Under the pieces are notes generated by a model. That model made no database searches, was not told the DNA's origin, and saw only the letters and a program-made list of their open reading frames with translations. DNA of 64,000 nt from Spiroplasma endosymbiont of Panorpa germanica (GTDB lineage Bacteria; Bacillota_I; Bacilli_A; Mycoplasmatales; Mycoplasmataceae). Shown here piece after piece: positions 41,205 to 52,953 of the stretch; the stretch's first letter is position 1; every line of letters begins with the position of its first letter. Location: the NCBI RefSeq assembly GCF_964019765.1, contig NZ_OZ026461.1, forward strand, positions 310,001 through 374,000, given 5' to 3'. The position numbers and the translations under genes were made by a program.

Positions 41205-43172
41205 ATGAAAAAAATTTTAAGTTTACTAGCAGCAGCGAGTTTAATAACTTCATCTGCTGCAACAACTATAGCATGTCATAAGAAAGAAACTAATTCTAAA
41301 CCAGCCCCTAAAAAAATAAATGAGAAAAATTTAGAACAGGGTTTACTAGCAGCAGCTCAACCATTCATCTTAGCAGATGCTGACGGGTACAATATTAATT
41401 ATTTAGCGAATACAATTATTGGTAAAACTAAATTGACAGACAGCCAATATTCATTTGATTCAAAAGATAATGACTTGAGTGGTATAAAAACCGTTAGCGA
41501 TTTCTGAGATAAAAATATCTACGTAAATGGAAGTTTTGCTGATACAGCGAAGTCAACAAATCTAAGTATTTTTAAAAATAGCAAAGAAAATGTTTCAGAA
41601 GATACTCAATTCCAATTAGGAGTAGCGTCTATTTTTATAGACTCCGTTGAACAAAATAATTTAGCAGCAGTTTTTGATGTTTTTGGTGAACAGATACCTT
41701 CTATTATAACTCCAGAATTGACTGAGCAAATTTTGAAATTGTTAAGTAAAGATAACCTAACAAATTTTGCTGACACATTTGATTTAAGTGCTTTTGATGG
41801 ACTTAGTTATAAAGATGTAATTGGTTATTCAATAAACATCCTAGCAAATGCCTTGTCTTCTGGACTGGAAATGCGTGAGGGTTTGGTTGTTGCTATTCCA
41901 ACTAGTGATGAAGGAACAAATGATAAAAATTTAGAAACTGGATTAAAGCTGGTATCAAAAGCCATTCAGAAGTTGACTAAAGGTGAGACAATTGATTTTT
42001 CAAACGCTCTTTTCCTTTCAAATATAATCAAATTTCTAATTATAACTAATAACTATATAGAACAATTTGAAACTTATGATAAATACGAGAACCCGACAGC
42101 AACTAAACTTTGATCAGCTAAGGAAAACAATCTAAATATAATAAAAAAAGTGTTGGACTCAAAATTTTCTGCTAAAGGTATAGAGTTTAATCCTAGCAGA
42201 TTTTTGAAAACAATAAATAGATATCTTATTCCCAAAGGAAACGAAAAAGATATTTTCCAATTTCAAAAAATACTGAATATCTTGCTGCTTAATAATAATG
42301 GTTTGTTAAAAATTATTAGACAGTTTTTATTAGATACATTGATTAAGAGTGATTTTATTATCGATGTTGCTATAATACCGCTTATTAAAGGAATTTTAGA
42401 ACAAAAAAGCATAAAGCCAACTCTAGAAGTTCTTTTGCCATTCGTTAGTGGTGATCTGAAAATAGCAATTGAAGAAATCCAAAAGAACGAGGAGTTTACT
42501 AAAAACCCATTGCTTTCAATTTATAGTGGTAATGGAATGAAGTTTATTTCTAAATTAATTCCAGCTCTAGAAAGTGTTGTTGGTGAAGGCAGTTTAAGTG
42601 ATTTATTAAATAATTTAAAAATAGGTGAAGTACTTTCATTAAAAGAATTTTTAGAATCTGCTATTGGTGGAAATAGTCCTGAGCTGCCTCAGGGGATCCT
42701 AATTGAAGATGTCCTTAATTTGATTAATTCTTTAGGTAAAAGTGACGCACCTGGAAATAATAACAAGACAGTGTTAGAAAAAGCTTTAAAGAACCCCGAA
42801 AAGCTTTTAAGTATTCTTGGATTTGATAAAAATACCAAAACCTTCAAAATTGATTCACCTCTTTCTCATCTTGACAAAATTTTGAGTAACAAAGATTTAT
42901 TGAAATTCTTAAGTAAATTAGTAGGAATTGTTAAAGATAGTTTAGAAAGATTTTCAAATAATTTTAATAATGAGCTTATCAATAAGCTAAAAAAAGATAA
43001 ATGAACGTTATTAGAATCAAAGCCAATTTATGATTCTAATAAAAAACTCACCGACTTTAATTTAATTATAAAATATGAAAATAAGGAATACACATTAAAT
43101 GCAAAAGTAGCAGACGGAACAACAAGTCTGATGGGTGAAAAATTTTATATTAATTATATAAATAGAAAATAG
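41205..43172 (+). CDS. Large lipoprotein, 655 aa, unknown function
   Basis: The signal peptide MKKILSLLAAASLITSSAA ends in a lipobox-like TIAC, with Cys24 as the lipid attachment site, so the protein should sit on the cell surface. The mature part is mostly helical and Leu/Ile/Lys-rich, with no domain I recognise. Segments such as LDKILSNKDLLKFLSKLVG suggest helical repeats. A few TGA codons encode Trp. AGAAAGGAAA precedes the ATG. Multi-copy lipoproteins of this type in Spiroplasma are often variable surface proteins. It has its own promoter and a long palindrome at its end. Confidence 0.85.
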
Positions 43173-43293: not shown

Positions 43294-43302
43294 TGTTATA
43301 AT
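43294..43302 (+). promoter_or_regulatory. Extended -10 promoter of the helicase/AAA+/radical-SAM operon
   Basis: TGTTATAAT is a perfect extended -10. It lies 24 bases before the ATG of the helicase gene, with AAAGAAAGGG as the ribosome binding site. No comparable promoter was seen inside the operon. Confidence 0.6.
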
Positions 43303-43326: not shown

Positions 43327-46300
43327 ATGTCGCAAGAAATTACACATGATAACAAAGAATTATTTTTCGACTTTTTTCTCTTTAAAAATAAGTATAAGGA
43401 TAACCTTGAAGAACTTGATGAATTTATCTCAAGTTTTAAGATAGATAACATAAATAAATTATCAGACCTGGAAGGTTTCTTTAAGGGTACAATGTTAAAA
43501 CAAGTATTTCTATGTTTGGTTGATAATAAAACCAACACGGTAGGTTTGAAAAATTCTAAAAATGGTCAGAAGGAAGTATTTAATTTTCTTTTTAGATTTG
43601 AATTTTCTGATATTTATCAATCAAGACTTCCTCTAGGATGCTGTGTGGCTTTTGGTGCGGATATTGACCCAAAGAGAGCTGTTGTAAATGTCAAAAATAT
43701 CTTTATTACTAAACTTACTAGCAAACCTCAATATTTTGAGTCAGTCATCAAGGATTGTCGTTCGCGTGTAATTTATTCAAATACTGAAATTAGTAATGAG
43801 GAGCTTTTGGAAAGAAATGTACTAAACTCTGAAACAGTTTCAAAAATCAATAAACTTTTAACTAACTTTGAAAATGAAGCTTTGGAGTGAGAAAATTACT
43901 TAGATTATTTGAACGATTCTCTTGAAATTAAACGTCGTTTAGCAATCCCCTTTTTAAATAGTGAAATTAGTGAGTTTATAAAAATAGATAAAAAAATGGC
44001 AAGCTCTTTGAGCGAAGAGGCAATTGATCACTTCGTATCTTCTAATTACAAATATTTTGATAAAAAATATGAATCTACTTTTAATATGAAAAATATTAAC
44101 TATGAAATTGTCAATATAGTAACATTTGAAATAATAAGTGACCTAGAATCCAAAAAGTTTAACCGAATAAAGAAAATGGATGACCTCTTTTTATTACCGA
44201 TATCTTCTAATAAAAATATTCAAAACTTTTCTCAATTAAAAAATAACATTGATTCAATTTTGAATTTTAAAAGTTTAGGGGAGAATGCAATAAGAGTGGA
44301 TTCAAAAATTCGATTAGATATTTTAGTTGGTAATCGTGAAGTTGGTAGCTTATTTAATTATTGAAAAACTAACGGCACAACTATTTTAGGTCATTTTCCT
44401 GACCAATTAAAGGAAATTAATGGTTTAGAAACAATAGAAAATAACAAAATTTTGTCAGTTAGCTATGAAATAACGAATTTTGATATTGAAGATTTAAATA
44501 AAAATGACTTACTTCATAGTTTAAAAAATGGATACCTATCATATCTGGGTATTGGTGACGAAACAATTATCAAGAGAAGTAGAGGCATCATAAAAAAAAT
44601 TAGAAATGGATGAGTTAAAAACCCTTATCTAGCTAATTATTTATTCAATACCGAATCAATTGAGGTAAATAACTCTGAGCAAGAATATAATTTAGAAAAT
44701 GTTAACTTTTATAATGAACTAAATCATAAACAAAAAGTTGCAGTTGTTAAAGCTCTAAACTCAAAGGATATTTTTTTATTACAAGGACCTCCGGGGACTG
44801 GAAAAACTCAGGTTATTTCTGAAATTGTTTATCAATTAGCTAACAGAAATAATAAGGTATTGATTTCTTCTCAAAATCATGAGGCTATTAATAATGTTAT
44901 CGATCGTCTGCCTTTAGAACCCGATCTTTATAAAATGAGATTAAGCAACGTTTCTTTTTTAGAAAATAAAAATGTTAACAATTTTGCCCCCGAAAGATTA
45001 TTGTTGAACTATTATAATTCAGTTGGAAAGATTGTCTATGATAAAGTTTTTCAAAACGGAGAAGATCTAAAATCAGCAAAAGAAGAGTTGTTGCAAATTG
45101 AAAAAATGCTGGCTGATTTCGATTCAGTAAAAATAAAGAATGATGAGCTTTCAAAAATTTCAGCCAAGATAGAATCTATAAAGAGTGAAATATCTTTAAT
45201 CCAGGAAAAATTCAATTCTGAAAATATTGAATACGAAGATTTAGAAGAGGATATTTTTCAAATAGAAAATCTTTCAAAAAATATAGAAACAAAAAACTTT
45301 GATGGAGTAGTTCCAAATAATAGAATTATTATTGAGGTTTATGAAAAAGTTTTAAAGAAAAATATGGATCTGTTATTTCAAAAAATATCAAAAGAACCTT
45401 CAGAGAATGTTTATAAAAATATTGGTTATATCTGAAATCGTTTTGTTTTAAACAACAAATCATATATCGACTTACTGGATTTAAAAAATAAATTGTCTAG
45501 TTTAAGTGCTACAAGTGAATATGAAAATGTAATCAAATTAAAAAACGAAATTAACGATTTAGAATTGGAAATTGAAAAAGATAAATATATCAGCAATTTA
45601 AATGTTATTTTAAATAATTTTAATCGTGAACTTAATAAAAAAATTAAAAGTTTTTCTAAAAAAAATAATTCTAATTCAGATCAAACAAAAATTAACTCTT
45701 TAAATCATGAATTAAATAATTTATTAGTCAGTCACTCTAAAATTAAAAAAAGTATTTCTGAGGTAATGGGAGCAGTTCAATCAAAAGTTGAGATTTTTAA
45801 TAGTCTTTACGGTAAAAATTTAAATGTCCTAAGAGATGATTATAAAAAAATAATAACTGATAAACTGCAAGAACTTGATAAAAAAGTAGATATTTTTGAA
45901 AATAATAAACAAAAATTGAAACCTATTTACGAAAAAACATTGAGATTCCTTGGGAATCATTATGAATTGTACTATGATTCGAATAAAAATAATGATTCAA
46001 TAAAATTTAATTTCCAGACGCTAAATGAAACGAAAAAATTTCTACCAATATTAATAAAAAATTTAACAAATATTTATGCTATGACTCTGAATTCACCAAG
46101 TCAATTTTACTTTGAAAAAAATAAAATTGCTAAAAGTGTTGATTTAGAAAAAATTGACTTAAATAATTTGAATATTGATACAGTAATTATCGATGAAGCA
46201 AGTAAGGCTACAATGTTAGAAATAATAATGCCCTTGGTTTTTGGTCATAGTTTAATTTTGGTTGGTGATTATCGTCAGTTACCCCCTTTAATAAAAATAA

Positions 46301-47169
46301 CCCAAGCAGAAGTTGATTTTATAAATGCAGAAACTAACAAGAATTATGACTTTGAAAAAATTTATAAATTACTTGATGATTCTATTTTTAAAAAATTAAT
46401 CACAAGAGCCAACCCAACAATTAAAGAGACTTTGCAAGTTCAATATAGAAGTAGCCGACAAATTATGGAAGTTGTTAACAATTTTTACGATGGTTATTTA
46501 AAAATTGAAGATGAAACCGATTTGAAAAAATTCCATAACCTAAAAGTAACCTCATCAATTGGTAATAGTATTATTTCCCCAGAAATTTCAACTTACTGAG
46601 TTGATTCAAGCCGCAGGGCTGATGGAGAATTATCTTTAGAACAAACCGAAGATTTTTCTACAAGTTTTTATAATGATTTAGAAATTGATTTAACAATTGA
46701 AATGATAAAAAAAATCGATAAGAGTGTGGGGGAGAGAAAGTCAAATTTTTCTGAAAAACCTTCGCTTGGAATAATCTGCATGTACGGACTCCATGTTAAT
46801 AAAATGAAAAGATCTTATAAAAAAATTAGTTCTTCAATTAATAATTTGAAGGTAATAATAAGCACTGTAGATGATTTTCAAGGTAAGGAATGTGATTTTG
46901 TTATTGTTAATTTAGTCAGAAATCCTGCTAAAATTTCAAGTATAGGACAAAAATTTATTAAGCGATACGAGAGAATCAATGTAGCTTTTTCTAGAGCAAG
47001 AAAGTTATTAATTATAATTGGTTCATCAAGAACAACGAATGGTGTATCAGTAAAGATACCTGATATGGAAAATCCATTAAAAATTAAGTCATTAAATGTG
47101 TATGATGATATATTGTCTTACATTAACTTCCACAAAGGTTATAAAACGGCTAAAGATATTTATGAATAG
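43327..47169 (+). CDS. Giant SF1 (UPF1/Dna2-like) helicase, 1280 aa
   Basis: This is a cytoplasmic nucleic-acid helicase or translocase. About 480 N-terminal residues have no recognised domain. Motif I (Walker A) GPPGTGKT is at residues 487-494, followed by Ia ISSQNHEAINNV. A long, mainly coiled-coil insertion of roughly 400 residues separates this from motif II DEAS (residue 956), motif III LVGDYRQLPP, motif IV/V DDFQGKECDFVIVN (near 1180) and motif VI NVAFSRARK (near 1217). This order defines superfamily 1, UPF1-like group (AAA_11 and AAA_12). Several TGA codons are read as Trp and the frame is continuous. It opens a five-gene operon, ending 11 bases before the next start. RNA or DNA may be the substrate. 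Confidence 0.88.
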
Positions 47170-47180
47170 GAGATAAAGTT

Positions 47181-49391
47181 ATGATTTTTGAAAATATTAA
47201 ATTGAAGTACTATAAAATTTCAAATCCGCTACAGATTGAATATTTTCAAACTCGTAAGCCGAATCTTTTTGAATTTTTAATACTGCAAATAATTATTGAT
47301 CATCCCGATAGAAGTGATACTATGCAAGAGATTTTGAAAAAAGATTTTAATATTTCTGAAATTACTATTTTTCAGAAAACTTTTATTGAACTTAAAAAAA
47401 ATAAATTAATTAAGGAGAAAGTTTTAAATTCAATTGATTATATAGTTTCACGAGGAGATTCAAATTTTAATTCGCCTATTGAAAAATTTGACGTTGAAGA
47501 AGAAATTAAAAAAGTTTTTAAAACTGAAAATTATGTTATTTCTCAAGAAACAAAAAACAAAAGAGTTTTTGTTGAGTATGATTTTATAAACGAAGAATTC
47601 AAAATTAAGGATACAAATTCTGAAAAAAATTTTACTAGTACCTACAATTATGAAATGAAAAATGATTTCAGCAAAAATCTTGATAAAAAAGATTTCGAAA
47701 ATATATTAGATAAATATCTCCATGAAAATAATGATTGATTTTCATCAGAGGATATTTTAAAAGATGTTTTCTTTAACAATGATAATACAAAACAGCTTAA
47801 TAATTTACTATTCTCAAGTAAAATAAACTCGGTTGTTTGTGAAAAGCAAATAAGTCTTGAAATAAAAAATAACGGAGCTGTCAACATTATCTCTGAAAAT
47901 CAAAAGATTTTGAAATATTTTCAAGATAACGAATCTGCTAGAAGTGATTTATTCAAAAGCATCATTGAACAGTATAATCATAAGATACTAGAAATTTTTG
48001 AACCAAAACGTGGGGTAATCGACCAAACTATTTTTGATGAGAAAATTTTTAGTCATGATAATCTACCTGATTATGAAAGAAGTGAACTTCTTTTATTGAA
48101 TAATGACGATTATTTTGCAGAAGATAAAGTTTTGAATTTCAAAAAGCTAACTAAAAATACCAAATATATAATTATCTATAACTCAAAAGCAAATACATCA
48201 TTGCAAGAATTTAAAGATGGCAAACAGATTTTTTATCTAAATCAGGTTAGCGATGACACACTGATTAATTCAACAGTTTCATTCTTAAATTTCAATACTG
48301 GTTTTACAAATTTTGCTTTAGTAAAAACACCGCTAACAAATTTGAATTTTGAAATACCTATTTTCAAAAAAATAAATAATACCAACGATCAGCAAAGAAA
48401 AGTTTTGGAAAGTGTTTGTCTTGGATTAACAAATACATTTAAAAGAGCTATGAATACTAAGGAGTATTCCAAAGCGGTTTATCTTTTTGAAATGATTAGA
48501 ACTTTAAATCATGTTGAAAACGCTTTTGAGGTCATTGAAGAAAAACTGATTAGTGATATATCAGAAGGAGAAGTTTTTGAAAATTTCGGGTCTTTATTAA
48601 AATTATCAACTACTGAGGCTATTTTTAAAAAATACGAAACTATAATGATTAAAATATTATCCGACATTGGTAATTCAAAAAATCATTCTTCATTACCTGC
48701 TATTTTGGGTAAATACAGCATCTTTAATAAGGAAGTTTTTAAAAAGATTTTATTTGATGTAAAATCAGATTTCAATCTTGAACAGATAATAAAGATGGAT
48801 GAAGTTTTGAAAAAAATGGATATTGATATTTGGAAATTCAATATTTTTAATTGTTTAAAGGTGTTAGCTGAACGTTTTGTTAATAATCCCAAATTTGACT
48901 CTTTAAATTTAAGCAATTCAAGTAATTCATTAATTTTAAAAAATCATATTGAATTATTTAATAACTACATTATAATGACGTCGTATTTTAATAAGAAACA
49001 ATACGACGAAGCAGCTCAAATTTTTGCTAGTCTTTTTGAAAATCTAATTAATGTGCTCAATAATTTAAAAAATATTAAAAATGATTTTGAAACTTATTAT
49101 AGATATCTTGGGGATAAAATGGCATCGTATTATTCTGAATATAATACCTATCTAGAAGGCAAAATTGCCCTTAACATAAAAACGCCAATTTGAAATATAA
49201 GATCTGAAAATATCAAAAAATACCAAAAATTAAATGGAGAATTAAATAAAAATATGCCAAAAATTCTATTTAATTACCCATTAGAATTTAAAATTGCATA
49301 TGTAAACAAGGAAGAAAACTCAAGTAAAAATGATTGATTCTTCGCTAAGATCAATGTTAAACAATTGATTTTAGATATTTATGCGAGATAG
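47181..49391 (+). CDS. Unknown 736-aa protein of the helicase operon
   Basis: I recognise no family with certainty. Residues about 25-85 (FEFLILQIIIDHPDRSDTM then TIFQKTFIELKKNKLIKEK) look like a winged helix-turn-helix. The middle (about 310-360) alternates strands and turns, for example NTKYIIIYNSKANTSLQEF. The C-terminal half is predicted to be helical and may be a repeat-type scaffold. There are no obvious catalytic motifs or membrane segments. AATAGGAG precedes the ATG, 11 bases after the helicase stop. Three TGA codons encode Trp. Base and codon use match the neighbours. Confidence 0.75.
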
Positions 49392-49405
49392 AATAGAGGA
49401 TTAAA

Positions 49406-50497
49406 ATGAGCAAATCAGCCAAGGAAGTACTATTAGACTATAAAAGAAAAGTAAAACACATTTCTGATGATATAAATTTTTTGATTAATACAATAAAAAT
49501 GATTATAGCATCTTGTGAAAAAATTGATAACTCCGATATTTACCATGAAGAGCTTAACATGTTATTGAAAAGATTGAACGAAAAACAATTCGAATTAAAT
49601 ACAAATGCGCTTGATAAAAAAATTTCAAAAGATGTTCACACAGCTACAGAAACTCTGAAAGAAATTAATTCCTATTTAAATCGCCAAGTAGATGATGTGG
49701 CACTAATAAAGCAGGCGGCATTAGAAATTAAAGCTAAGGTTATTAAATCAGAAATTGAACAAACTCAAATAAATTTAAAAAACAATACTTATAATTCATT
49801 TCGCGAGGCTGTGGATAAAGTTTTAGATAGTATCAACGATGCTGAAAGTTACAATTTTTTGAAAAAATATGTTGAGGAAAACCAAAATACTTTGATTAAT
49901 GTAGGCCTTAATTCAATACAAGCTCATTTACTTCAACAAGCGGCTGATTTTGTTGTCAAACCTCAAAGCATCTTGAGCAGGGTTGTTAATTTTCAACTTG
50001 AACAGTTTAAAGATGATCCCGATTTAATGGATATAATCAAGGCGAATAGCAAAGAGGTTGAACTTTCGATTAATGAGAATAGTACTTCAGAAAAAATAAA
50101 AGCCTTTTTAAATGAAACAGAGCATCAAATAGCTTCTGAAGTTATCCGAAAAGAGGTTATAATTAAAATAATCCAGGCAATAAGAAATGTTGGTTTTGTT
50201 GTTAACAAAAGTGATGTGGTCAGAGCTAAAATGGGAAATAAAGTTATGATTTTAGCTCAAAAACCAACTGGAGAAACAGCGCAATTTGCAGTCGACCTAG
50301 ATGGTAGCTACATTTATAACTTTGAAGGATATGAAGGCAAAGAGCACGATTATGATACTGATGATTTTATTCAAAAATTAAGAGATTTTGGCCTTGCTAC
50401 TAGCGAGGAATTTCAAACAGTCTATCGTAAACCTAATTTCGTCGCAAAAAAAGAGAGCGCGATACAAAATGTTAATAATAAGAAAAAAACAAAATAA
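49406..50497 (+). CDS. Coiled-coil protein with C-terminal DUF1257/DUF2997-like region, 363 aa
   Basis: The N-terminal 260 residues are almost entirely charged helix (coiled coil), starting KEVLLDYKRKVKHISDDI. The C-terminal part changes to alternating strands: IQAIRNVGFVVNKSDVV, then AQFAVDLDGSYIYNFEGYEG and a helix FIQKLRDFGL. The latter resembles, by eye, the pattern of small DUF2997 proteins (a strand, Asp-Gly, a Gly-x-x-Gly turn, a helix), and the former the DUF1257 (Ycf35) pattern. I recall these families near AAA+ and radical-SAM genes in other bacteria, but could not check. AGAGGA precedes the ATG. It may be the partner or substrate adaptor of the AAA+ protein that follows. Confidence 0.7.
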   Translation: MSKSAKEVLLDYKRKVKHISDDINFLINTIKMIIASCEKIDNSDIYHEELNMLLKRLNEKQFELNTNALDKKISKDVHTATETLKEINSYLNRQVDDVALIKQAALEIKAKVIKSEIEQTQINLKNNTYNSFREAVDKVLDSINDAESYNFLKKYVEENQNTLINVGLNSIQAHLLQQAADFVVKPQSILSRVVNFQLEQFKDDPDLMDIIKANSKEVELSINENSTSEKIKAFLNETEHQIASEVIRKEVIIKIIQAIRNVGFVVNKSDVVRAKMGNKVMILAQKPTGETAQFAVDLDGSYIYNFEGYEGKEHDYDTDDFIQKLRDFGLATSEEFQTVYRKPNFVAKKESAIQNVNNKKKTK

Positions 50498-50505
50498 GGA
50501 GTTTT

Positions 50506-52311
50506 ATGAGTACAAGAAATCAATTTATACAATTACAAAATATATTAGGGATTAAAAAAGTTATTATTGTTGAAGGTAATGTGGATGACATTTATTTGGA
50601 TAATAACGAATATGTTAACATTCACAAAAAAATCAAATCAATATTGGATGCAAAAAAAGTTAATAGTCAAATATTTTGAGACAAAATTGATGGCTTAAAG
50701 GGACATGGGATTCAGGATTTAATTCTAATGCCAGAAACCCAAAAAGTTGAAGGTGAGTCATACGATGAAATTGATGAACTATTTTCAAGTAACCCTGAAA
50801 ATGACCAAAAAGACCCTAATTTTAAAAAACCAGAAAACTTCTTTGCTCTAGTAAGAAGAAATCTAAATCGCAATGATGACAAAAAAGTTGTTTTCATTTT
50901 AGATTATTCTGATTTCATATTTAATGATACACAACTTTTAGAAGAAGATAGAAATAATTTGATAAGTTTAAGCAAAACTTTGAAAGAAAATCAATTTAAA
51001 ATATCTAAAGTATCTAAAACTGATTCATCAATAATTTTGATAACAAAACAACTTTCTCAGTTGCCTCCAAGAATATACCTTAATAATCCTGAGGTTACAA
51101 CACTGACATTACCAAAACCAAATCGTGAAGAGCGCAAGACTTTCATTGCCTCGCTAAAAAATCAAATTCAAGTTACAGATGCAGATGACAAAAATTTTGT
51201 AGAAAATTTGACCGATACTTTTGAGGGATGAACCTTAAAAGAAATTTCACAGTTCACAAAATTCACTAATAACAATGAAATGTCTACTTTTGAAAAATCA
51301 TTAAATAACTACAAATATGGGGATAAAGACTCTCCTTGGGAAGACTTGAATTATGAAAAGTTATCAAACTTAAAAAGAGAATTAAAATCGAGAGTTATTG
51401 GTCAAGATTCAGCGATTGATAAAGTGGCAACAGTTATTTACAAGGCGTATACCGGGCTATCTGGGGTGGCTTATTCTTCAAAAAAAACCAAACCAAAGGG
51501 AACTTTGTTCTTTGTTGGTCCCACAGGAGTTGGGAAAACTGAGTTAGCCAAAGCAATTGCTAAATTTGTGTTTAATGATGAGGCTAATCTAATTAGATTT
51601 GATATGTCTGAATATTCTCAATCTAATAGTGATCAAAAATTGATTGGAGCCCCACCAGGTTATATAGGATTTGAAGGTGGAGGACAACTAACCAATGCTG
51701 TAAAGCAAAAACCTTTTTCAGTTATTTTATTTGATGAAATTGAAAAAGCTGATTCAAGCATTTTTGATAAGTTCTTACAAATTTTAGAAGATGGTCGTTT
51801 AACAGACAATACCGGACAAACCGTAAGTTTTACTGATTCAATCATCATATTTACCTCAAATATTGGGTCAGCTCATGTTAGCGCCTCTTCAAAGCCTGAA
51901 GTTACTTCAGAAAAATTCTTAAAATTTGTGGAGGACTTCTTTACTCAAGAACTTGGTCGTCCTGAACTTTTAGGTAGATTTGGAAATAACATAATTCCGT
52001 TCAATTTTATAACTGATTATGATACCAAAGCTAAAATTATTAAGCAAAAACTAAAACCAATTCAATTGGCTGTATATGAAAAATTTCATATTCAAGTTCA
52101 TGTCGAAATAACTGAAAAATTGATTGAAATAATTTTAAAAGAAGCCAATGAACAACGTGGAGGTCGAGACATCCTGAATGCTCTTGAAAAACAGTTTGTC
52201 GATCCGCTTTCTCTGTTTATTTTTGAAAATCAAGTTAGTCTTAAACCGGGAACAAAAATTGAAGCAGTTGTCGATCGCGAAGAAATAAAATTTTTGGTGA
52301 AAATTGGCTAA
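50506..52311 (+). CDS. Two-domain AAA+ protein, degenerate D1 plus ClpB-type D2, 601 aa
   Basis: Residues 1-260 resemble an AAA module that has lost its Walker A: the first strand reads VIIVEGNVDDIYL and a Walker B-like strand reads KKVVFILDYSDFIF. Residues about 290-600 are a complete ClpB/ClpA D2-type ATPase, with Walker A GPTGVGKT (338-345), pore-region GAPPGYIGFEGGGQLT, Walker B ILFDEIEKAD, the arginine finger segment LGRPELLGRFG and the sensor-2 helix QRGGRDILNALE. The protein should form a hexameric unfoldase or remodelling ring. There is no ClpP-docking loop I can identify. AAGGAG precedes the ATG, 8 bases after the previous stop, and the radical-SAM gene starts inside its end. Confidence 0.85.
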
Positions 52312-52909
52312 TTTAAATATTAACAATTTTGTCTCTCAAACCGTGATTGAAGGGCCGGGCAAAAGGTTTGCGGTCTGATTTCAGGGATGTTCAATTGGAT
52401 GTAGAAATTGTAGTAACCAAGAAATGCTAAGCTTTGAAAAGAAAATGTTTCTTCCAGTATCTCTTTTGGTTGAAAAAATCAAGGAATCTAAAGAAAAATT
52501 TAACATTCAGGGTTTAACTATTCTGGGGGGGGAACCTTTTTTGCAACCAGATGGGCTTTTAGAATTGGTTGAACAAACAAAACAACTAGGATTAAATATT
52601 ATCATATTTTCAGGATTTTTATATGAAAATTTAGAAAAACAATTTTTTGAAATTTTGGCCAATGTGGATATTCTTATTGATGGACCATTTATTTCTTCAA
52701 AACTGGATAAAAAAAGACGTTTAATCGGAAGCACCAACCAAAGAGTTATTAAAATAAGTGATCATTTTGAAAATGATGATTATTTTGAAAAATCAGTTTG
52801 AGAAGTTGATATTCACATTAATAATTCTATCGCCACAATCAATGGGGATGGTTCTATTTTGGATAACGATGAAGGTCTAAATATATTTAATATTGAGAAA
52901 AAAAATTAG
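52304..52909 (+). CDS. Radical SAM activase-like protein (NrdG-type), 201 aa
   Basis: The [4Fe-4S] cluster site is CSIGCRNC (C-x3-C-x2-C) in VWFQGCSIGCRNCSNQEM, preceded by VIEGPGKRFAV as in the NrdG / 4Fe-4S single-cluster family. The SAM-binding GGEP motif follows in TILGGEPFLQP. The start must be TTG 52304: it is the only start codon before the cluster site, it overlaps the AAA+ stop by 8 bases, and GGTGA lies just upstream. The protein is small and lacks a second cluster domain. No anaerobic ribonucleotide reductase is adjacent, so it probably acts on a partner of this operon. A strong terminator follows. Confidence 0.8.
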
Positions 52910-52917
52910 ATTGAAAT

Positions 52918-52953
52918 AAATACCACTTTTTTGAAAAAAGAGTGGTATTTTTT
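52918..52953 (+). terminator. Terminator of the five-gene operon
   Basis: AAATACCACT pairs with AGTGGTATTT, extended by T/A pairs around a GAAA loop and followed by T residues. It lies 8 bases after the radical-SAM stop. Confidence 0.85.

Follow-up and report, generated by a model that had tools for sequence, protein, structure and literature searches.

The 64,000-nucleotide stretch of DNA analysed here (the window; positions 310,001 to 374,000 of the single, 1,054,068-base contig NZ_OZ026461.1 from the Spiroplasma endosymbiont of Panorpa germanica) contains at positions 43327-52909 an operon of five open reading frames (ORFs), all on the + strand, when TGA is read as tryptophan as in the mollicute code (translation table 4). 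Translation table 11 was rejected, since the five genes are broken under it. In order, the genes code for a UPF1/IGHMBP2-like SF1B helicase of 1280 amino acids (aa) resembling CnuH (helA, 43327-47169), an effector-type protein of 736 aa resembling CnuE and lacking the RNxxxH motif (midB, 47181-49391), a long helical, coiled-coil protein of 363 aa with a conserved C-terminal alpha/beta domain (ccC, 49406-50497), a two-part AAA+ protein of 601 aa whose C-terminal half is ClpB-D2-like (aaaD, 50506-52311), and a minimal radical S-adenosylmethionine (radical-SAM) protein of the NrdG/PflA type with 201 aa (rSAM, 52304-52909). The intergenic gaps measure 11, 14 and 8 bases, and aaaD and rSAM overlap by 8 bases, exactly as stated in the original prediction, whose domain calls for the helicase, the AAA and the radical-SAM protein are likewise upheld by profile matches. 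Behind the operon, a terminator scan detects the predicted intrinsic-terminator-like hairpin with a 15-bp stem and a T tail (52918-52950, + strand), terminator-like sites numbering 3 as compared to 2.4 (sd 1.3) in shuffled sequences. The extended -10 promoter proposed in front of the operon is present as a sequence, TGtTATAAT at 43294-43302 on the + strand and 24 bases upstream of the first ATG, but is statistically unsupported in this AT-rich DNA: promoter-like consensus sites were observed 74 times, against 59 (sd 8) in the shuffles. As such matches lie near the shuffled background, promoter statements carry no weight here, the original one of no promoter within the operon included. Within the operon there is neither an Rfam match nor any notable repeat.

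With respect to the distribution of these genes, all five are found in the same order in 27 other genomes of the Spiroplasma family and in one mollicute of another family (G050), and most of the Spiroplasma-family loci adjoin rplM-rpsI or leuS; in the most diverged Spiroplasma group, midB was identified by position and size in a BLAST map and then by alignment. In an order-level sample of 148 genomes searched for ccC and for high-scoring rSAM, the two co-occur genome by genome within the family, its other genera lacking both. Beyond the mollicutes, the ccC profile reached the same gene set in Bacilli using the standard code, where the five genes stand in order at 15 sampled loci from five families: six, among them L125, in which rSAM is divided between two ORFs, plus nine, in some of which helA runs off the contig; a further locus, L126, carries only a shorter ccC, aaaD and rSAM. 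A protein search also revealed the full set, in identical order, on plasmids of Photobacterium, Moellerella, Polaromonas, Acinetobacter and Leisingera, some of these carriers being conjugative. The five genes are therefore a conserved set, and the possibility raised at the outset that they might be found mostly apart was not borne out. Outside Spiroplasma their presence is patchy: in two orders of Bacilli, the marker was detected at an E value below 1e-71 in 9 of 196 genomes (10 if one match at E 8e-4 is included) and in 6 of 160 genomes, respectively. A scan of named genomes for ccC yielded three Spiroplasma loci only (S. poulsonii, S. phoeniceum), and the E. coli genome collection only ClpB-type fragments.

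In the gene tree, which was calculated for aaaD only, all Spiroplasma sequences form one clade, and families f16, f30 and f35 are intermixed with the mollicute G050 on short branches. This topology indicates that the system moves between Bacilli, has entered a mollicute lineage and is inherited vertically in Spiroplasma, and, taken together with the patchy distribution outside this genus, that the five-gene set travels as such.

In Spiroplasma, the ratio of nonsynonymous to synonymous substitution rates (dN/dS) ranges from 0.01 to 0.25 across the five genes wherever the compared pair has a dS of about 0.1 or more, one pair with a dS of 0.01-0.04 being uninformative. The operon is therefore under purifying selection throughout and should still be working. 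The C-terminal Walker motifs of aaaD and the Fe-S motif of rSAM are complete in all sampled copies. Exceptions in organisation are S. poulsonii (G817, record of L128), where the operon has been split and about 60 kb lie between helA (108698-112519) and an intact aaaD (172396-174213), and G524, in which only a broken helA is present. Separately, a decayed helicase-to-AAA remnant lies near rpmH/rnpA/yidC in Mesomycoplasma hyorhinis (L138 2941-10295), and in genome G109 (L085 4569-7796) ccC and aaaD are separated by three extra genes, which encode a spiralin-domain protein, an amidohydrolase and a DeoR-type regulator.

The helicase HelA matches Pfam AAA_11/AAA_12 and, at 176 bits, the NCBIfam model TIGR00376; its best PADLOC match is MkoA (300 bits), and its structure matches are SEN1, SMUBP-2 and UPF1. 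Walker A and Walker B are separated by 466 residues, forming a helical insertion poor in glycine and proline; measured between motifs I and II, this glycine- and proline-poor spacing is 462-475 residues.

For midB taken singly, no family match was obtained in Pfam, NCBIfam or PADLOC, and the original prediction had accordingly listed its product as an unknown. This has to be revised, as the Spiroplasma protein aligns over its full length with Bacilli MidB (HHalign E 4.9e-36) and its homologues are effectors ending in an RNase domain. In the Bacilli and in G050 the C-terminus is a HEPN-type domain, and all 16 sequences carry RNxxxH; the protein of L127 has matches to Pfam HEPN families, and that of L122 to DUF4145, which is a HEPN family (PMC3710099). 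On the proteobacterial plasmids the C-terminus is instead a PIN_4 RNase domain (E 1e-19 to 1e-24 in four copies, 3e-6 in the fifth). Since the HEPN- and PIN-type proteins have their N-terminal 240 or so columns in common (E 1.7e-6), MidB can be regarded as an effector carrier with exchangeable RNase tails. RNxxxH occurs in none of 20 Spiroplasma sequences, and, judged by these alignments, the Spiroplasma line has lost the catalytic RNase motif; nonetheless, the dN/dS of midB is 0.07-0.25 among Spiroplasma pairs with dS of at least 0.1. The Bacilli MidB profile gave no convincing match to a solved structure, and an AlphaFold model from four sequences is poor (pLDDT, the predicted local distance difference test, 43), the N-terminus in it reading as winged-helix-like.

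The C-terminal alpha/beta domain of CcC has six residues that are invariant in the alignments (F294, G300, Y304, G308, E310 and D317). In the structure model (pLDDT 75), helices span residues 5-261 and are followed by strands; the model has no fold match at E<=0.001, nor does the profile convincingly match a solved structure. AaaD matches AAA_2 in Pfam at 174.7 bits, and its ClpB-D2-like C-terminal half has Walker A, Walker B and the aromatic pore loop intact in 21 of 21 sequences. In the N-terminal half Walker A is found in 0 of 21, and similarity to AAA proteins is sub-significant (VCP-like, E 0.06), so that "degenerate AAA" is a reading of this half rather than a result. A ClpP-binding loop was looked for in AaaD and none was found.

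In every five-gene copy rSAM is the last gene and follows the ClpB-like AAA gene, which it overlaps or abuts in nearly all copies, and the pair also occurs without genes 1-3. It is because of this close and persistent linkage that the radical-SAM protein is proposed to act together with the AAA ring, as the gene arrangement suggests. RSAM matches Fer4_12 in Pfam at 116 bits, its best profile matches being NrdG and PflA, and shares with these the minimal radical-SAM fold, including CxxxCxxC and GGEP (21/21 and 18/18 sequences, respectively). In the original prediction, NrdG-like proteins were described as installing glycyl radicals or otherwise modifying a partner. However, neither Gly_radical (PF01228) nor NrdD/NRDD (PF13597) has a match in ten operon-bearing Spiroplasma genomes (G032, G076, G079, G088, G091, G100, G112, G135, G144 and G493, the last checked for ccC only), and in the window's own genome NrdD is adjacent to an NrdG of its own (NrdG at genome positions 656380-656853, the pair at 656380-658909). 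Glycyl-radical activation is therefore unlikely to be the general role of rSAM. Membership in NrdG is further contradicted by a score of 101.8 bits, below the TIGR02491 cut-off of 126.1. The class III ribonucleotide reductase NrdD is patchy across Spiroplasma. As a separate observation, in citri-group Spiroplasma rSAM and a redoxin/thiol-peroxidase-like domain (Redoxin E 3e-12) form a single in-frame ORF of 368 aa, as at L081 4915-6021 and L129 12981-14087 and also in L082, L083, L084 and L130.

No PADLOC, NCBIfam or Pfam model covers the five-gene set, so that the earlier statement that it matches no named defence system holds for the libraries searched. Several systems sharing single components were rejected. 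Mokosh is defined by a helicase with a Ser/Thr kinase partner or a fused PLD nuclease; despite the MkoA match, the five proteins contain no kinase or PLD in Pfam, and helA is accompanied by four other genes instead. AaaD is not a ClpB (261.7 bits against a cut-off of 1232; N-terminal Walker A absent, as above). Its C-terminal half resembles DolB of Dodola (88 bits) and PDC-M37B (135 bits), but Dodola consists of DolA (DUF6414) and DolB, and only the DolB-like half is present here, none of the five proteins matching DUF6414. The prokaryotic viperins (pVip) are likewise excluded, as rSAM scores 31.6 against 180 bits (32 bits in PADLOC). With Hhe and ProA, HelA reaches 21.5 bits (cut-off 2000) and 50.5 bits (cut-off 1500), respectively, and DUF4011 and the MTES_1575 nuclease are missing; the likeness lies in the AAA and radical-SAM pair, which on Aristaeella and Rhizobium plasmids adjoins DUF4011/MTES_1575 helicase-nucleases resembling ProA/Hhe (L136 1137-18999; L140 12989-23085). 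Kinases accompany both of these pairs, as do FHA and PP2C in Aristaeella; the pair here belongs to another, distinct system.

The closest likeness is to the CoCoNuTs. There, Type II/III CnuH is a UPF1-like SF1 helicase in which Walker A is followed by a large helical insertion (eLife 2024 RP94800, PMC11090510), and CnuE, encoded directly downstream, combines an elongated winged-helix-like N-terminus with a variable C-terminal nuclease (HEPN with RxxxxH, PLD); their genes overlap and RNA is the predicted target (PMC11090510). The UPF1-type helicase with its insertion of 462-475 residues agrees with CnuH. MidB is likened to CnuE by description: it carries a nuclease tail outside Spiroplasma and none in Spiroplasma, and its winged helix comes from the low-confidence model. 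The term "PIN domain" is absent from the text of the CoCoNuT paper (PMC11090510). A tandem AAA+ protein whose first domain is inactive is part of one CoCoNuT extension, which recalls the reading of AaaD given above. However, no McrB-type GTPase, McrC or TerY-P is found among the five products, which instead include the ClpB-D2-like AAA protein, the separate coiled-coil protein and the NrdG-like radical-SAM protein. With the defining McrB/McrC core absent, the operon is not a CoCoNuT, although in its first two genes it may well work like one; a match to a described operon is therefore partial, consisting in the resemblance of these two genes to CnuH-CnuE. No description of the five-gene set was found in the literature, which is weak evidence of its absence, as openly licensed papers only were covered.

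The mobile copies also have defence-type neighbours, with Abi, Thoeris and Type IV restriction genes beside several of them. Next to the Bacilli copies lie genes for AbiJ/Abi_C, AbiEii, a DruE-like C-terminal part, Thoeris ThsA and ThsB, GmrSD (HEC-05), PDC-S01, TerB, a HEPN protein and a Type II methyltransferase, the latter adjoined by a prophage-tail gene. Among the top scorers after the five-gene plasmids, three plasmid-borne relatives of HelA outside the operon were examined: one is located inside a BREX operon with DarT, one adjoins QatC, and one is found with hsdR and toxin-antitoxin genes, where the next protein has a C-terminal PLD domain. An RNase III-like gene begins 3 bases past rSAM in L121 (13432-13932), L122 (13442-13951) and L144 (5425-5925), and is a possible sixth gene of some Bacilli copies.

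Taken together, it appears reasonably probable that an anti-invader system of five genes moves horizontally between bacteria and that the operon is its Spiroplasma branch, passed on by vertical inheritance. To judge from sequence comparisons, from which function and mechanism are inferred, this system is probably a new, previously unnamed variant of RNA-targeting, CnuHE-type defence, and of the options considered originally it is phage defence that fits the context of the relatives best, in terms of both neighbouring genes and plasmid carriage. The UPF1-like helicase would move on RNA or single-stranded DNA and use its helical insertion to bind the effector at the winged-helix-like N-terminus; where the system is mobile, the C-terminal RNase of the effector, HEPN in Bacilli and PIN in Proteobacteria, would cut RNA after infection and thereby stop the phage or the cell. 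The ClpB-like ring, each subunit of which has a single live ATPase domain, might thread or remodel one of the proteins in the complex, the coiled-coil protein serving as its adapter, and the radical-SAM protein might modify a protein partner exposed by the ring, licensing or disarming the nuclease. In Spiroplasma the RNase motif is gone, but the catalytic motifs of the other three enzymes persist, so that the system probably operates there without this RNase, and its function is, on this evidence, independent of the HEPN active site. The Spiroplasma branch is probably domesticated or altered, the latter perhaps by use of another effector. A more specific scheme, which is put forward tentatively and is itself rather doubtful, holds that the ClpB-like unfoldase hands a protein to the NrdG-like enzyme, that the radical modification switches the UPF1-like helicase/RNase complex on or off, and that a version lacking the nuclease has become fixed in Spiroplasma as a core cellular machine. 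To our knowledge, no anti-phage system described so far links an RNase effector with both an NrdG-type radical-SAM protein and a ClpB-like unfoldase, and none came up in the model libraries and papers searched. If confirmed, threading and radical chemistry would constitute a new type of control for CnuHE-type RNA-targeting immunity, Spiroplasma would be a case of a defence-like system remaining under selection after loss of its nuclease motif. The spread over Mollicutes, Bacilli and Proteobacteria, conjugative plasmids included, makes the system testable in ordinary laboratory hosts.

Several points weigh against such a defence system. In Spiroplasma, the operon is a fixed element with conserved synteny (beside rplM-rpsI or leuS), which is not how a typical defence island behaves. 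Defence-type neighbours are present at 7 of the 15 Bacilli loci, but were picked partly by eye and without a matched control. No phage record contains most of the AAA protein or of the helicase, and a scan of viral contigs with the rSAM alignment returned one locus, whose ORF list, read by eye, showed no obvious partner gene. The winged helix of the effector stems from a low-confidence model, and the anti-phage role of every copy is inferred, as are complex formation, the direction of control and the radical-SAM substrate.

The near fixation, synteny and purifying selection in Spiroplasma, together with the ribosomal-protein genes adjoining the operon in several genera, would also suit housekeeping RNA or protein quality control, in which the helicase clears RNA-protein complexes, the ring remodels them and rSAM modifies a component, the mobile copies having the same function. 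By analogy, the pairing of UPF1 with a PIN or HEPN RNase recalls RNA surveillance in eukaryotes, and three Bacilli copies are followed by the RNase III-like gene. Yet this explanation seems unlikely in view of the patchy presence and mixed-family tree outside Spiroplasma, the carriage on conjugative plasmids, the defence-type neighbours and the swapping of effectors, and because several genera of the same family lack the operon and it has decayed in G524. Plasmid carriage, and the fact that HEPN and PIN are common toxin folds (PMC3710099), might alternatively indicate toxin-antitoxin-like maintenance of a plasmid or island, with the HEPN/PIN toxin held by the AAA, coiled-coil and radical-SAM part. 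However, five genes and about 10 kb are large for an addiction module, the set is nearly always whole, and Spiroplasma conserves the supposed antitoxin genes despite having lost the toxin motif, making such a role improbable.

That the Spiroplasma operon might be a decaying relic without present function is suggested by the loss of the RNase motif, the broken helA of G524, the decayed Mesomycoplasma hyorhinis copy and the split in S. poulsonii, but is hard to reconcile with a dN/dS of mostly 0.02-0.25 in all five genes, the AAA and radical-SAM catalytic motifs (21/21) and the intact aaaD of S. poulsonii, and is accordingly considered very improbable. Least credible of all, and close to negligible, is an activase operon installing a glycyl radical in the manner of NrdG or PflA: these two are the best rSAM profile matches, but the score lies under the NrdG cut-off, the ten operon-bearing genomes lack a glycyl-radical enzyme, and NrdD has a dedicated NrdG beside it.

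Finally, between rpsI and the operon the window contains a gene for a large predicted lipoprotein (41205-43172; 655 aa), which is absent at that place in G064 and is found in G047 with just 35% identity.

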